In this document: positions 18,188 to 23,640 of the stretch, piece after piece
Layout of the letters: every line of letters starts with the position of its first letter
Position numbering within the stretch: the first letter of the stretch is position 1
NCBI GenBank assembly: GCA_900314825.1
Contig: OMWS01000018.1
Span: 1 to 64,000, forward strand
Direction of reading: 5' to 3'
Length of the DNA: 64,000 nt
DNA from: an uncultured Veillonellaceae bacterium
GTDB lineage: Bacteria > Bacillota > Negativicutes > Selenomonadales > Selenomonadaceae
Translations under genes and position numbers: made by a program
The notes under the pieces: model-generated
Database searches by the model: none
Told to the model about the DNA's origin: nothing
Seen by the model: the letters and a program-made list of their open reading frames with translations, nothing else

Positions 18188-18223
18188 AAGTCGCTGCACG
18201 CGAGAACGTGTAGCGACTTTTTC
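18188..18223 (+). terminator. Terminator of the efflux operon
   Basis: AAGTCGCTGCACG/CGTGTAGCGACTT stem with one G/U pair and a CGAGAA loop, followed by TTTTC, 36 bases after the pump stop codon. Confidence 0.85.
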
Positions 18224-18326
18224 TTTGACGATTTTGCGTTTGATGCAAAGGCGTAGCAGGATTTTGACATGACGCTGTCGTATTTAAAAAAAAGATTGAA
18301 TTTTGAAATCGACAGGAGGGACGGCC

Positions 18327-19430
18327 ATGAGGCATCGCGTGGCCCCAATCGCATTCATGGCACTCGGCGGCGGGCAGACGATCGGGAACAGTTGCTATGC
18401 GCTCGGCTTGGGCGGTCTTTGCGGCACGCAGGTGCTCTTGGATTGCGGTGCGAGCCGCAGGGGCGGAGGCTGGATGGAGCCGGCGTTCTCTGCCTGGCAC
18501 GCGGCGGTGCAATCGGCGGGCAGGACGGCGGAGGCTGCGCAGCTTTTTGTTTCGCACGCTCATCTCGATCATGCGCGGCTCGTGCCGCAGCTGGCAGAGC
18601 AGCATCCGGCGATGGATGTGTACATGACGGAGGTCACGCGCGCGTTTCTCGCGATGCAATCGGGCGGTCCGCCGCTACGCGCGCAGACGGTGAGTTATGG
18701 GCAACGCCTGCGCTTTGACGATTACGAAGCTTCCTTTTGGCCGGCCGGGCACATCGCCGGCGCGATGATGACGCTGCTTTCCTTTGGTGGCAGGAAGATC
18801 CTCTACACAGGCGATTATTCTTGCCTCAGCACGCCGTGGGCAGAGGCTTGTGCGCTGCCAGACGTGCCGATTGACGTGCTGATCCTCTGCGCCGTGCATG
18901 CCGTCCATCCGCATCATGGGATGCCTGTAGGTCTGCGCGGTCTTTATCGGGCGATGCGCGAGGCTATCGGGGATGGGCAATCTGTCTATGCGCGTTGCCG
19001 TCAGCTCAGCAAAGGCAGCGAGCTTTTGCGCTATCTGCGTTCCTCAGATGTGCTGCGTGACGTTCCAATTTATCTCGATCCCCGCATGATGGCGACGGTC
19101 GAAGCGCTTGAAGCGCTCGGCATCCCCGTGCTTTCGGCGCACGATTATCCGCTTGCGGCCTGGCAGGGGCAGCAGCCTTGCATCGTACTCGGGACGAAAG
19201 AAGCGAGTGGGCGCTTCGCGTCCTTTGTCCACGTCGAGGGCGATCAGTTTTCGCTGCATGATGATTTCGAACAGACGGCGGCGTTCATCCGTCGCGTAGC
19301 GCCGAAACTTGCCGTCATCGTGCATTGCGTGCCGAGCGCGCAGGAGACCGTCGCGAGCGTCCTCGAACGCGAGGCGGATTGCCGCACGCAGTTTTTGTTT
19401 CCTGTAGATGGCGAATTATATGAACTTTGA
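18327..19430 (+). CDS. Beta-CASP-like metallo-beta-lactamase-fold protein
   Basis: A 367-residue MBL-fold protein resembling beta-CASP nucleases. NSCYAL and VLLDCGASRRG open the fold (about residues 21-45). The metal motif is SHAHLDHA (76-83), with PAGHIAGA (139-146) and YTGDYS (160-165) following. A middle region (ARCRQLSKGSELLRYL onward) is placed like a beta-CASP insert, and VIVHCVPSAQET near the C-terminus resembles the last His-containing motif. Activity on RNA or DNA is inferred. The start is ATG 18327 with AGGAGGG 6 bases upstream. It is the first gene of a tight three-gene unit with a GrpE-like and an Hsp70-like protein (gaps of 23 and -11 bases). Confidence 0.75.
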   Translation: MRHRVAPIAFMALGGGQTIGNSCYALGLGGLCGTQVLLDCGASRRGGGWMEPAFSAWHAAVQSAGRTAEAAQLFVSHAHLDHARLVPQLAEQHPAMDVYMTEVTRAFLAMQSGGPPLRAQTVSYGQRLRFDDYEASFWPAGHIAGAMMTLLSFGGRKILYTGDYSCLSTPWAEACALPDVPIDVLILCAVHAVHPHHGMPVGLRGLYRAMREAIGDGQSVYARCRQLSKGSELLRYLRSSDVLRDVPIYLDPRMMATVEALEALGIPVLSAHDYPLAAWQGQQPCIVLGTKEASGRFASFVHVEGDQFSLHDDFEQTAAFIRRVAPKLAVIVHCVPSAQETVASVLEREADCRTQFLFPVDGELYEL

Positions 19431-19453
19431 ATATGGAGACGGGAGGTTTGCCA

Positions 19454-20575
19454 ATGAGAAACAAGAGACAGGGCGCAGAGCGGCGCATGACATGGATCAT
19501 GCAGGCTGTGCAGGAAGCTGTGGAAAAAGCTTATCATCGTATGAAATGGAACAGCGTCGAAGATCCGAACATTGTCGTAGAAAACCGGCTGCTTCGCATC
19601 ATCGCAGAGCAGGGCGAGAAGCGTTTGCGCACGTATGCGGAGCTTTTGCGCGAGCGCTATCATATGCGCTTGGATGTCAGTGACGTCGTCGACGCATTCC
19701 GCCGCATGCGCATCTCGAACCCGGAGAAGCGTGCGGAACTTTTCGATTGGGCGCGCGAACTCACGCGCGCATTTGAGCGGGCACTCGTGAGCGGCGCAGC
19801 GGAGGACGTTGCGGCGTATATGGCCGTGAAAGATCGCCGCATCTTGCAGTGGAACAACGATCCTTCGCGGCAACATGGCGCGCAACGGCGGATCGGCATC
19901 ATGTTTCTGCTCGCGCATCATCCAGAGCTTTATCAGCGGGACGACGGGAAGAAAATCGATGTACTCGGCAATGTTTTTGCGAAATACGTGTTGTTCGACC
20001 TTTCGGATGCGTTGCGCGACGCGTGTACGCCGACGCGCGTGTCGCGTTTCGATCAGAAATCGCAGCCGCAGGGCGAGACGGCGCGTCTCCAGCGGGAAAA
20101 TACGATGCTGAAGAGCAGCCTCGAACAAGCGGAAATGCTCATGAAAGATTTGCAGGAGGAATTCGACGAGCGCCTCGCAGCGAGCCGCGAGCAGGAAATG
20201 GTCGATTTCTTTTCGCGCCTGAACTCAGAGCGCTACGGTTGCATCCTTGATGAGATCCTCACGCTCCGGCGCGGCATCAAGGAACTGCGAAAAGCGCATT
20301 GCGATGTCCCCGTCGAAGTGAGCGGCCTGTTCATTTTCGTTGAAAAACTCGCGCAGTTCGTCATGGACGCGCACATCCATCCGATCTTGCCACAAGGCAA
20401 GGTGCGGGATGTGCATTTTGCCGACATCGAAGCGTGCGATTATGAAGGGCGTCCCTTTGAAAGCGAGGCGGATGTGCGGCGTGTAAAGGTGCTGTCGCCC
20501 GGCTGGATCTATGAGGATAAGAAACTTCAGATCGCGCGCCCGAAAGTGAAGGAGGTCGTCACGGATGGCGAATGA
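19454..20575 (+). CDS. GrpE-like nucleotide exchange factor candidate with unknown N-terminal helical domain
   Basis: A 373-residue cytoplasmic protein. Residues 1-200 are mainly helical and not recognised. A coiled coil follows (about 203-248, TARLQRENTMLKSSLEQAEM and beyond). After a helical segment the C-terminal 45 residues read EGRPFESEADVRRVKVLSPG then WIYEDKKLQIARPKVKEVV. This closely follows the order of the GrpE beta domain (GxPFDPxxHEAV ... VLxxGYxxxDRVIRPAxVxV). The gene overlaps the start of an Hsp70 homologue by 11 bases, which supports a cochaperone role. GrpE proteins are usually about 190 residues, so the N-terminal domain is an addition. The start ATG 19454 has GGGAGG 7 bases upstream. 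Confidence 0.6.
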   Translation: MRNKRQGAERRMTWIMQAVQEAVEKAYHRMKWNSVEDPNIVVENRLLRIIAEQGEKRLRTYAELLRERYHMRLDVSDVVDAFRRMRISNPEKRAELFDWARELTRAFERALVSGAAEDVAAYMAVKDRRILQWNNDPSRQHGAQRRIGIMFLLAHHPELYQRDDGKKIDVLGNVFAKYVLFDLSDALRDACTPTRVSRFDQKSQPQGETARLQRENTMLKSSLEQAEMLMKDLQEEFDERLAASREQEMVDFFSRLNSERYGCILDEILTLRRGIKELRKAHCDVPVEVSGLFIFVEKLAQFVMDAHIHPILPQGKVRDVHFADIEACDYEGRPFESEADVRRVKVLSPGWIYEDKKLQIARPKVKEVVTDGE

Positions 20576-23423
20576 CATGCAGGAACACTCGAATCTCTGT
20601 GTCGGCATCGATCTCGGCACGACGAATTCCGTGCTTGCGACGGTCAGCGTGAAACCGAATGGCGACCTCGTGAGCAAAGTGCTCGGCATCGACCGTGCTG
20701 TGGACAGCTATACGAGCGGCGGCGGGGACAAGTACCAGATGCGCAAGGAAAACACGCTGCCGTCGTGCGTCTACTACAACCCGGATGCCGGCTATCGGCC
20801 GATCGTCGGCGATTACGCGAAGCGGCGCTATCCGCTGCGTCCCTACCTCGTCGCGAAATCGATCAAGAGCCAGATGAAAAACGCAGAGGTGCAAGGTCTC
20901 GCACCCGAAGTGCCGGACACGACGCCAGCGGCCGTCTCCGCGCGCATCTTGCGCCATCTCTTGCACGGCGCGGAAAGCGTCTATCGCACGCACATCCACG
21001 ATGCGGTCATCACGGTGCCGGCGAGCTTCGATCCCGTCATGTGCCGCGCGACGCAGGATGCGGCAGCGCTCGCGGGTGTCACAACGGAAGAAGCGGATGG
21101 CAGCGAGCGCCCCGTGCTGCTCTCGGAGCCGAATGCCGTGCTCTATGATTTCATCAACCAGGTGCGTACGGGCGAGATCGCTGGTGAGCTCATCGACCTG
21201 TCCGTGCCGAAGTACGTCATGGTCTTCGACCTCGGCGGCGGTACGCTCGACATCACGCTCCACGTGGTGCAACGGCGGCAAGACCTCCCCGACGTGTTGA
21301 AAGTGCAGGACATCGCGACGAACCGCTATACGCTTCTTGGCGGCGATGATTTTGACGAGGCCATCGCGCAGGCGATGTTCGAGCGCTATCTCGCGAAATT
21401 CCATGCGCGTCCGGAAATCGTGGACAAGATCCGCCGCGCCAAACAAGAAGTCTTGCCGACGTTGCGCGTTTTTGCCGAAGACCTCAAAATCGAGCTCAGC
21501 AATCGCCACAGCGAAGACGGCTGGGCGGCATCCGAAGGTTTTGCGGCCGGCTGGGATGATGACGAGGAAGAGAGCGGCGATACGTATGCGACGGGTGGCA
21601 ACATCGCCGTCACAGGCATCGCTTATGACGACACGTTCCGCACGGAAGAACTCGAGGCGATCCTCCGGCCGTTCCTCGGCGAAAAGCTCGTGTTTGACGA
21701 CTACCATCGCCTTGACGCCATCAGCGATACGCGCAACATCATTTTTCCCATCCTCGATGTGCTGCGAAAAGCTTCGGAAAAACTTGGCACAGACGATGTG
21801 AAAATCGACGCCGTCGTCATGAATGGCGGCATGTCGCGCTTTTACATGGTGCGCGATCGTCTCAAGGCCTTTTTCGGCTTCGAGCCCGTCGTCGCGCTCG
21901 ACCCGGACCTCGCTGTCGCGCGCGGCGCAGCGATCTACCACTATTATCTCCATCAGCACGCGGCGATCCGCGATGATATGCGGATGCTCGGTTCAGCGTC
22001 AACGGCGGCGCCGATTCAAAGAGAAATTGCCAGCCGAGGAGGAACGGCGGCCGCACCAAAACCATCGCGGAAAGATATCGAATGGGGACGTGCCATCCTA
22101 CCCGATGCGCTTTCTCTCGGCTTGCGTGGCGGCGAGCGCGAAATCGTTGTGCCGACAGGCGCAGAACTTCCGTATCAGTCCGCACGTATGACGGGCTTCC
22201 GCCTCGCTGCTGGCGCCGACCATATCTATATCCCGTTTTACGTGCGCAATCTTGATGGCACGGATCGCCACATCGCAAGCGGCGTGCTCCGTTTTAAGCA
22301 GACGTATCCCGATGGCGCGTTCGTTGCATTCGAAGTCTTCATGAACAGCAGCAAGCTCATCCGCATGAATGCTTGGACGTGCGCGGACGTAGCGGGCGGG
22401 GAAACGATCGAACAAGGCAGCGCAAAACTTGTCATCCAAGAAGACGAGCCCCAGATGGCTGTCCGTGTCCAAGGACCGAAACTCGTGCAAGCGACGCGCT
22501 CGGGTGCTGCGTGCGATTTCGTGATGGAGCTTCGCGAACTGGAAGCACTCTGCCAAACGTTCGAATTGCCGTGGAAAACAAAAAGTGCCCAGAAGAAGCA
22601 TACGAATCTCGCGAAGCAGATCCGGAATCAGATGAAGCACTTGCAACGTGCAAGGAACATCGAAGAGCTCGGCAAGCCACTCCTCGCGGGGCTTCGCGCG
22701 ACGACATGCGAGGAATTTCGCATGCGTTGTCTTGTCTTGGCGCGCCGCGTGTCAAATGCGTTTTCGGAAGAGGAACGCCGTGCCCTCGTTGCACTGTGCT
22801 TTGATATGATCGCTCCGCTCCTCCAACAGGGCGACAGCGGTAAGTTGTACAATCTTCACAGCCAGGCGATCCTCGCCATCGGCGCGCTCGGCACGCAGGA
22901 CGACGGCGAAGCGCTCTCCTCACTGCACAATTACAAACGCTATCGCGATGCGTGCCTCTGGATGCATGCGCGGACGCGTTCACAGCTGCGTTGGGTGTAT
23001 TTGGAACTCGTCCGAGACTGCAAATTCACGACGAGGAAAGGGACGGGCTCGATCCAATCGCCAGCGCGCGCAATCGGCATGGCGTTCTACGGGACGGACG
23101 CCGCGGAACTTGGCGGCGTGCAGCGCGTCGATGCCATCCGAGAGCTCTGCAACGCCGTCACGCAGTGCGTTCCGAAAGCGGGGGCGCTCGTCAGCTGCAT
23201 CGTCGCGCTTGGCTGGCTTTGCGACCAGCGCAGCGGACGGAACATCCTTCCATCGTCTCTGCTCGCAAATGTGCAAGATACGCTTTCGAATGCGATGTAC
23301 GATTACCCGGAATATTTTCTTGTTGGTCATCCCGTCGTCGTGCAGATCGCGAAAAAGATGATGGAGGGCCATGCGCTCGATGAACAGGAAGAAGCCTTCC
23401 TGCTCGAAAAGATGGAAGAGTGA
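20565..23423 (+). CDS. Divergent Hsp70 (DnaK-like) protein with long C-terminal extension
   Basis: A 952-residue Hsp70-family ATPase, about 310 residues longer than DnaK. The actin-fold ATPase is complete: phosphate 1 GIDLGTTNS (14-22), the LSEPNAVLYDF region (186-196), phosphate 2 FDLGGGTLDITL (221-232), LLGGDDFDEAI, adenosine motif VVMNGGMSRF (417-426) and LDPDLAVARGAAIY (445-458). An acidic insert (about 316-346, with WDDDEEESGD) is unusual. A substrate-binding-like region follows from ILPDALSLGLRGG (511-523). The last 300 residues are helical, of unknown family. ATG 20565 has GAAGGAGG 9 bases upstream and overlaps the GrpE-like gene. It is probably a specialised chaperone rather than the housekeeping DnaK, because no dnaJ or grpE of normal size is present. 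Confidence 0.85.
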   Translation: MANDMQEHSNLCVGIDLGTTNSVLATVSVKPNGDLVSKVLGIDRAVDSYTSGGGDKYQMRKENTLPSCVYYNPDAGYRPIVGDYAKRRYPLRPYLVAKSIKSQMKNAEVQGLAPEVPDTTPAAVSARILRHLLHGAESVYRTHIHDAVITVPASFDPVMCRATQDAAALAGVTTEEADGSERPVLLSEPNAVLYDFINQVRTGEIAGELIDLSVPKYVMVFDLGGGTLDITLHVVQRRQDLPDVLKVQDIATNRYTLLGGDDFDEAIAQAMFERYLAKFHARPEIVDKIRRAKQEVLPTLRVFAEDLKIELSNRHSEDGWAASEGFAAGWDDDEEESGDTYATGGNIAVTGIAYDDTFRTEELEAILRPFLGEKLVFDDYHRLDAISDTRNIIFPILDVLRKASEKLGTDDVKIDAVVMNGGMSRFYMVRDRLKAFFGFEPVVALDPDLAVARGAAIYHYYLHQHAAIRDDMRMLGSASTAAPIQREIASRGGTAAAPKPSRKDIEWGRAILPDALSLGLRGGEREIVVPTGAELPYQSARMTGFRLAAGADHIYIPFYVRNLDGTDRHIASGVLRFKQTYPDGAFVAFEVFMNSSKLIRMNAWTCADVAGGETIEQGSAKLVIQEDEPQMAVRVQGPKLVQATRSGAACDFVMELRELEALCQTFELPWKTKSAQKKHTNLAKQIRNQMKHLQRARNIEELGKPLLAGLRATTCEEFRMRCLVLARRVSNAFSEEERRALVALCFDMIAPLLQQGDSGKLYNLHSQAILAIGALGTQDDGEALSSLHNYKRYRDACLWMHARTRSQLRWVYLELVRDCKFTTRKGTGSIQSPARAIGMAFYGTDAAELGGVQRVDAIRELCNAVTQCVPKAGALVSCIVALGWLCDQRSGRNILPSSLLANVQDTLSNAMYDYPEYFLVGHPVVVQIAKKMMEGHALDEQEEAFLLEKMEE

Positions 23424-23504: not shown

Positions 23505-23533
23505 TTGCAATCTCATGGTCAATGCCGTATAAT
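23505..23533 (+). promoter_or_regulatory. tRNA operon promoter
   Basis: TTGCAA (23505-23510) and TATAAT (23528-23533) with a 17-base spacer, 31 bases before tRNA-Asn. A GTCGGCG/CGCCGAC mini-hairpin lies between promoter and tRNA. Confidence 0.75.
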
Positions 23534-23564: not shown

Positions 23565-23640
23565 TCCTCGATAGCTCAGCCGGTAGAGCACCTGACTGTT
23601 AATCAGGCTGTCGCAGGTTCGAATCCTGCTCGGGGAGCCA
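23565..23640 (+). tRNA. tRNA-Asn(GTT)
   Basis: A complete cloverleaf with acceptor TCCTCGA/TCGGGGA and anticodon stem CCTGA/TCAGG around loop CTGTTAA (anticodon GTT at 23598-23600). It has GGTTCGAATCC in the T arm and an encoded CCA end. Confidence 0.95.

Follow-up and report, generated by a model that had tools for sequence, protein, structure and literature searches.

What do three tightly packed genes for a metallo-hydrolase, a protein with a GrpE-like end and a long Hsp70 do together? The locus lies in a stretch of 64,000 nucleotides from an uncultured Veillonellaceae bacterium (contig OMWS01000018.1, positions 1 to 64,000), which was analyzed as a whole and is called here the window. We refer to the first gene as the hydrolase, to the second as the middle protein, to the third as the Hsp70, and to the three together as the unit; unless they carry a locus label, all coordinates are positions in the window on the + strand. 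On balance, we lean towards a dedicated chaperone-hydrolase unit, whose Hsp70, cycling with a GrpE-like factor of its own, would remodel or gate the hydrolase or its nucleic-acid client. According to the open reading frames, the unit is an intact operon whose three genes are all on the + strand in the order hydrolase, middle protein, Hsp70. The first two genes are separated by 23 bases, the last two overlap by 11 bases, and ribosome-site-like sequences read directly in the DNA precede each of them (AGGAGG at 18314-18319, GGGAGG at 19441-19446, and AGGAGG at 20550-20555). This layout, including the spacing and the strong ribosome sites, agrees with an earlier reading of the locus made from the letters alone (hereafter, the sequence-only reading), as do the terminator-like stem upstream and the promoter-like site ahead of the tRNAs downstream. 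The features are as follows.

18327-19430, +: hydrolase, predicted beta-CASP-type metallo-hydrolase of the metallo-beta-lactamase (MBL) fold; ATG start, 367 amino acids; matches Pfam Lactamase_B_2, and its family profile matches CPSF-73
18555-18572, +: MBL motif 2, HAHLDH (H77, H79, D81, H82); metal ligands invariant in 19 relatives
19257-19325, +: H311 (FSLHDDF, motif-B-like) to H333 (motif-C-like), the RMMBL/beta-CASP end; invariant in 19 relatives and aligned with FSAHTD and VHG of CPSF-73
19454-20575, +: middle protein, N-terminal domain and putative GrpE-like C-terminal half; ATG start, 373 amino acids; kept in 46 of 189 genomes of the family
19454-20038, +: N-terminal domain of the middle protein, about residues 1-195; recurs alone in paralogues of 277-291 amino acids beside the unit
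20051-20572, +: putative GrpE-like half, with coiled coil, helices, and C-terminal strands (VLSPGWIYEDKKLQIARPKVKEV); sub-threshold Pfam GrpE matches in relatives, hhalign comparison, low-confidence model
20565-23423, +: long Hsp70; ATG start, 952 amino acids; Pfam HSP70 at 5.5e-35
20589-21959, +: nucleotide-binding domain of the Hsp70 with complete phosphate and adenosine motifs; motifs invariant in 18 relatives
22077-22484, +: region of the Hsp70 resembling the beta part of the substrate-binding domain (SBD-beta-like); aligned with the SBD of the Priestia Hsp70 at E 1.2e-6, all-beta in a model of pLDDT 44
22497-23420, +: all-helical C-terminal domain of the Hsp70, in place of the usual lid; kept in 47 genomes of the class, helical in the same model
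18188-18219, +: terminator-like hairpin with a 13-pair stem and a T-rich tail, ending the upstream RND (resistance-nodulation-division) efflux operon

The unit is genuine, its three genes being inherited together. Searching the nearest 60 genomes yielded two further middle proteins of about 40% identity, and the gene order of the unit recurs at both loci. Profile searches detected the middle protein in 46 of 189 genomes within the window's family (40 belong to one genus), in only 1/7 genomes of the window's own genus, and in 47/380 genomes of the class, the extra one belonging to another family; in a sample of 398 genomes of the phylum, the window's genome alone gave a match. The C-terminal half of the Hsp70 occurs in nearly the same genomes (47/379 in the class and 1/299 in the phylum). 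Among the apparent exceptions for the Hsp70, in G154 and G155 the middle gene is immediately followed by sequence for the Hsp70 N-terminus, and in G077 the locus is cut by the end of the contig. All of the 22 complete loci have this gene order on a single strand, even where protein identities fall to 26-42%; most junctions are short or overlapping. The three proteins diverge in close correlation (r 0.93-0.97 between their pairwise identities, Mantel p 0.001), and alignments of relatives show purifying conservation of all three. Flanking genes vary between lineages while the three genes stay together, and no fourth gene is common to all loci. Because the order is the same in all 22 complete loci at such low identities, the unit is more than a chance neighborhood. 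That three unrelated genes simply share a short operon has next to no probability, contradicted as it already is by order kept across families, correlated divergence, and matching presence and absence. The co-occurrence proposed for checking across Negativicutes and other genomes was found within the class, homologues being adjacent in every complete locus.

By its sequence, the hydrolase is a beta-CASP-type enzyme with a trimmed specificity domain. It matches Pfam Lactamase_B_2 above the cut-off (35.7 bits) and harbors a GHIAGA motif besides HAHLDH. The seven MBL ligands (H77, H79, D81, H82, H142, D163, and H333) do not vary among 19 relatives, nor does the motif-B-like H311; a loss of metal ligands, which would have spoken against the sequence-only reading, was not seen. 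Compared with other families, the hydrolase profile is closest to CPSF-73 (1.2e-38), followed by Int11, archaeal CPSF (aCPSF1), Cas14, and the RNase TTHA0252. The roles of the motifs are those established for CPSF-73 and RNase J. With the beta-CASP RNases (CPSF-73, Int11, aCPSF1/FttA, TTHA0252, and RNase J) and Cas14, the hydrolase shares the MBL fold, all metal ligands, and the motif-B and motif-C histidines; it differs from them by its size of 367 amino acids, its shortened beta-CASP region, an invariant cysteine in place of the motif-A glutamate, and a score far under the Cas14 cut-off. Pfam Beta-Casp gave no match in the window hydrolase, and the RMMBL specificity domain scored slightly under its Pfam cut-off (21.2 versus 21.6 bits). 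The description of this protein as beta-CASP-like consequently stands for the two motifs and the CPSF-73 profile match, and has to be restricted for the beta-CASP domain, which is shortened and lacks the motif-A Glu. A nuclease role is likely on these similarities. The motif-A region (18876-18920) reads CAVHAVH, with the Cys and the two His invariant in 19 relatives, versus ESTYG in classical beta-CASP nucleases. An identity with Cas14 of type VII CRISPR was rejected, as the NCBIfam cas14 score is 61.9 bits for a cut-off of 800.

The third protein belongs to the HSP70 family (Pfam HSP70 5.5e-35) and carries the phosphate-1, phosphate-2, and adenosine motifs. DLGTT, EP, the DLGGGTLDIT-type motif (D-GGGTLD), and NGGMS are invariant in 18 relatives, so that the sequence-only reading was right to see complete ATPase motifs in this 952-residue protein. 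Among PDB entries, the family profile matches DnaK of the DnaK-GrpE complex 1dkg best. Behind the ATPase domain lie a variable spacer, the SBD-beta-like region, and, over about 300 residues, an all-helical domain that matches no family significantly. In a single-sequence AlphaFold model (pLDDT 44), the SBD-beta-like region is all-beta and the C-terminus helical. The protein is not a canonical DnaK: it scores 111 bits with TIGR02350, for a cut-off of 822, and has no usual lid. A DUF3731-type Hsp70 was considered and discarded for want of a Pfam match, and PADLOC returned for the Hsp70 only PDC-M61B at E 0.037. The canonical DnaK set is encoded elsewhere in the genome, apart from the unit. Like canonical DnaK-GrpE-DnaJ, the unit associates an Hsp70 ATPase with a GrpE-like partner; unlike it, the GrpE likeness is weak, the partner has an extra N-terminal domain, a helical C-terminus replaces the lid, no J-protein is encoded, and the operon contains a hydrolase. 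The window's genome encodes a third Hsp70 (827 amino acids; contig C112, L089:11695-17017), and immediately after it a protein of 940 residues that has a J-like N-terminus and a segment resembling acyl carriers. Elsewhere in the class, one genome has a second GrpE-DnaK-DnaJ-like trio, far away from its canonical set (L106:7155-11228).

The middle protein of the window matches nothing in Pfam, NCBIfam, or PADLOC. Several relatives match Pfam GrpE below the cut-off (best score 19.3 bits versus 25.8), and in one of them the match is collinear over the whole domain (residues 203-362 on 3-163 of the family). By hhalign, the middle-protein profile aligned with canonical GrpE at P=0.0016, and at P=0.0012 once plasmid versions described below were added, then in full register including the wing. 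A single-sequence AlphaFold model of low confidence (pLDDT 40) shows a coiled coil followed by helices and, at the C-terminus, three strands, which is the order seen in GrpE. The window protein ends in VKVLSPGWIYEDKKLQIARPKVKEV and the plasmid middle proteins in VKIVGYGWTLNGKILVQPIVEQV, the same kind of GW wing motif. GrpE-like is thus the best reading of the C-terminal half, on sequence comparison, although not a proven one: the GrpE-like end announced by the sequence-only reading is supported by sub-threshold matches in relatives and by profile comparison, whereas Pfam and NCBIfam do not recognize it in the window protein itself. About 195 residues at the N-terminus form a separate module. 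At three loci, a paralogue of 277-291 amino acids between the hydrolase and the middle gene retains this module, with a short acidic tail instead of the remainder. These paralogues (L051:9958-10833, L044:684-1523, and L057:8741-9574) have a tail ending near LLNDPDAQxMLIAP. Family scans recognized no RNA-binding domain in the middle protein, which is most likely a dedicated exchange factor and adaptor.

A joint machine is supported because conserved order and co-inheritance come together with intact catalytic residues. In such a machine, the C-terminal half of the middle protein would be a GrpE-like exchange factor reserved for the unit Hsp70, which comprises the ATPase domain, the SBD-beta-like region, and the helical C-terminal domain and would go through its ATP cycle with this factor. 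The N-terminal half of the middle protein would serve as an adaptor that directs both to one particular client, most probably the hydrolase or a nucleic-acid complex on which the hydrolase acts. ATP turnover might then assemble, release, or gate a metal-dependent nuclease. The sequence-only reading had inferred a chaperone machine controlling, or controlled by, a nuclease-like enzyme, perhaps in stress or defense, which the analysis supports in part.

Several observations weigh against this proposal. The GrpE likeness is weak (E 9.7e-4 for the best single sequence, hhalign probability 16-19%), and a canonical GrpE is encoded separately in 12/12 genomes checked, where it might serve the unit Hsp70 too. 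The hydrolase has nothing to match about 85 residues of the CPSF-73 beta-CASP domain, and the position of the CPSF-73 motif-A Glu is occupied by the invariant Cys188, within CxxHAxH; given this shortened region and this substitution, nuclease activity is not assured. No J-protein gene is present in the unit, and in an alignment with DnaK the positions that we take to be DnaJ contacts carry non-DnaK residues in the unit Hsp70. Finally, the single-sequence models are poor (pLDDT 40 for the middle protein and 44 for the Hsp70). The ubiquity of canonical GrpE in the genomes checked and the fact that all scanned relatives fall under the Pfam GrpE cut-off would suit a middle protein acting as a scaffold, whose coiled coil and C-terminal strands link the hydrolase and the Hsp70 while canonical GrpE performs the exchange. 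We consider this doubtful in view of the collinear GrpE-like register and of the wing-like C-terminal motif, which is kept in the plasmid version too (VKIVGYGWTLNGKILVQPIVEQV).

A distant version of the unit was found on plasmids. Independent plasmid searches with the Hsp70 and with the hydrolase converged on one place, in Priestia megaterium plasmid pNCT2_2 (NZ_CP032530.1). Six genes follow one another there, encoding a hydrolase of 630 amino acids with a full beta-CASP domain, a hypothetical protein of 476 amino acids, an Hsp70 of 583 amino acids, a HEAT-repeat protein, and two coiled-coil proteins. Through the hypothetical protein, a second copy was reached on pNY3A (CP079755.1), with an integrase directly upstream of the cluster and the Hsp70 gene split into two annotated reading frames. 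The pNY3A record is labeled Klebsiella grimontii, yet the region (locus L137) is AT-rich and Bacillus-like by eye, and the host label is doubtful. The two clusters are homologous gene by gene. Both plasmids are mobilizable and carry an HNH nuclease gene downstream of the cluster; the Priestia HNH protein matches NsnA at 1.9e-30. The plasmid Hsp70 scored 242.7 bits with the family profile of the unit Hsp70, versus about 98 for the genome's own DnaK, and in a small unrooted tree the unit-type and plasmid Hsp70s separate from DnaK-type proteins with a support of 0.985. The match between chromosomal and plasmid middle proteins is weak and at the profile level alone (P=0.016). Plasmid clusters and unit share the order hydrolase, middle protein, Hsp70, a related Hsp70, and the same kind of GW wing; the plasmid clusters differ by a larger hydrolase with a full beta-CASP domain, an Hsp70 of normal length, the HEAT protein being encoded separately, and extra coiled-coil genes. 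We take them to be of the same design and probably distant homologues of the unit. A homology between the helical C-terminus of the unit Hsp70 and the plasmid HEAT protein was not retained, being not significant (P 0.02). Searched in 149 genomes of the phylum, the plasmid-type middle protein gave a single match, full of stops, which was disregarded. The plasmid clusters are annotated in their records but, as far as we found, undescribed.

The unit itself also appears to be undescribed: as the sequence-only reading had supposed, no system of this composition was found in the open-access papers searched or in PADLOC. Chaperone modules coupled to nuclease-like enzymes are already known, and what is new, as far as we found, is this composition. 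One close parallel is CnuD, the Hsp70-HEAT protein of Type III CoCoNuT (McrBC-related) restriction systems, which are predicted to act on RNA and in which the Walker A-like motif of CnuD is described as degenerate (PMC11090510). Like the unit, these systems combine the nucleotide-binding and substrate-binding domains of an Hsp70 with a helical (HEAT-like) domain within a nuclease-containing cluster. The unit differs by an MBL/beta-CASP enzyme instead of HEPN or PD-(D/E)xK, by complete ATPase motifs, and by the inclusion of a GrpE-like protein. Neither an McrB-like GTPase (NxD motif) nor an McrC homologue lies beside the unit, whose neighbors in the window are the RND pump and tRNAs, and none is annotated in the plasmid versions. 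The other parallel is given by the GTPase-centric GAP1-N2 predicted conflict systems, which encode HSP70 and GrpE side by side (PMC7159879), as does the unit with an MBL hydrolase instead of the GTPase. No GAP1-N2 GTPase, FNIII, or DnaJ-domain protein was seen beside the unit, where no gene beyond the three is common to the loci, and none is annotated on the plasmids; GAP1-N2 was not searched by profile. Neither parallel has this composition, and the GTPases or McrBC genes that define them are missing from the unit.

As for biological use, it is possible, though no more than tentatively so, that the unit is a housekeeping-like module of RNA maturation or decay, with the hydrolase as a specialized RNase and the Hsp70 pair keeping the hydrolase or a ribonucleoprotein substrate in shape, for example under stress. 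The proximity of the hydrolase profile to the RNA-processing enzymes CPSF-73, Int11, aCPSF1, and TTHA0252 is consistent with such a use, as are the conservation of all three proteins and a stable place beside tatC in one genus. In ten loci of this main genus, the gene beside the unit, on the opposite strand, is TatC-like, a name given from a reading of its sequence. Against an RNA module, the middle protein has no recognized RNA-binding domain, no CIRCE heat-shock site is present in the window, and the unit is absent from 143 of the 189 genomes of the family and from six of the seven of the genus. It is therefore not essential. The CIRCE result also led us to reject heat-shock control by HrcA/CIRCE. 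Such patchiness (presence in 1/7 genomes of the genus) would suit a defense against mobile elements, phages or plasmids, in which the Hsp70/exchange-factor pair would sense or threshold a foreign protein or RNA and unleash the hydrolase on nucleic acid. This use seems to us rather unlikely, a shade more so than RNA or stress physiology, and some probability goes to neither; both are compatible with a dedicated chaperone-hydrolase unit. Defense would also agree with the distant version on two mobilizable plasmids, with its upstream integrase in one, its HNH genes in both, and the NsnA similarity of the Priestia one. Hsp70 modules occur within published predicted conflict systems (PMC7159879; PMC11090510). 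Furthermore, type III CRISPR Cas10/Csm1 and a Cas6-like protein are encoded 4-7 kb from one copy (L007:1052-4367), and a gene with a sub-threshold Csa3/CARF-like match (E 0.0013; L088:1285-1911) lies about 2.5 kb from another, the sole copy outside the family. However, most Negativicutes-type copies are located among housekeeping genes, ten of them beside tatC, the window flanks are an efflux pump and tRNAs, and no PADLOC system matched. Scans of phages, viral contigs, and E. coli genomes gave no match to the unit, and those of collected genome contigs found nothing.

It is conceivable, though we would not yet favor it, that the unit defines a new class of prokaryotic system, in which a private Hsp70 and a GrpE-like adaptor would control a beta-CASP-type nuclease, in a compact three-gene chromosomal form and a six-gene plasmid form, against mobile elements or damaged RNA. 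If true, it would offer a simple case, open to testing, in which a chaperone serves to switch an activity that could do harm; until now this idea has come mostly from predictions based on comparing genomes. The unit, which is compact, could be reconstituted from three proteins, and it has natural variants: the helical domain is fused in some, the HEAT protein is separate in others, and the adaptor domain may or may not be duplicated.

Downstream of the unit, a promoter-like site (23505-23533) precedes tRNA-Asn at 23565 and a tRNA cluster. As gene order around this cluster is not kept in sister genomes, an empty insertion site could not be read. The third-position GC of the unit (0.68-0.71) falls in the lowest sixth of background genes, which is no more than suggestive of a recent horizontal gain, a reading that was not retained. 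In individual genomes, other genes adjoin the Hsp70: an IS605 OrfB/TnpB gene with a Cas12f-like nuclease domain next to one copy (L042:3702-4853), and, in one genome, a gene for a WYL-domain transcription regulator that overlaps the end of the Hsp70 gene with its first 4 bases (L055:12071-13120).

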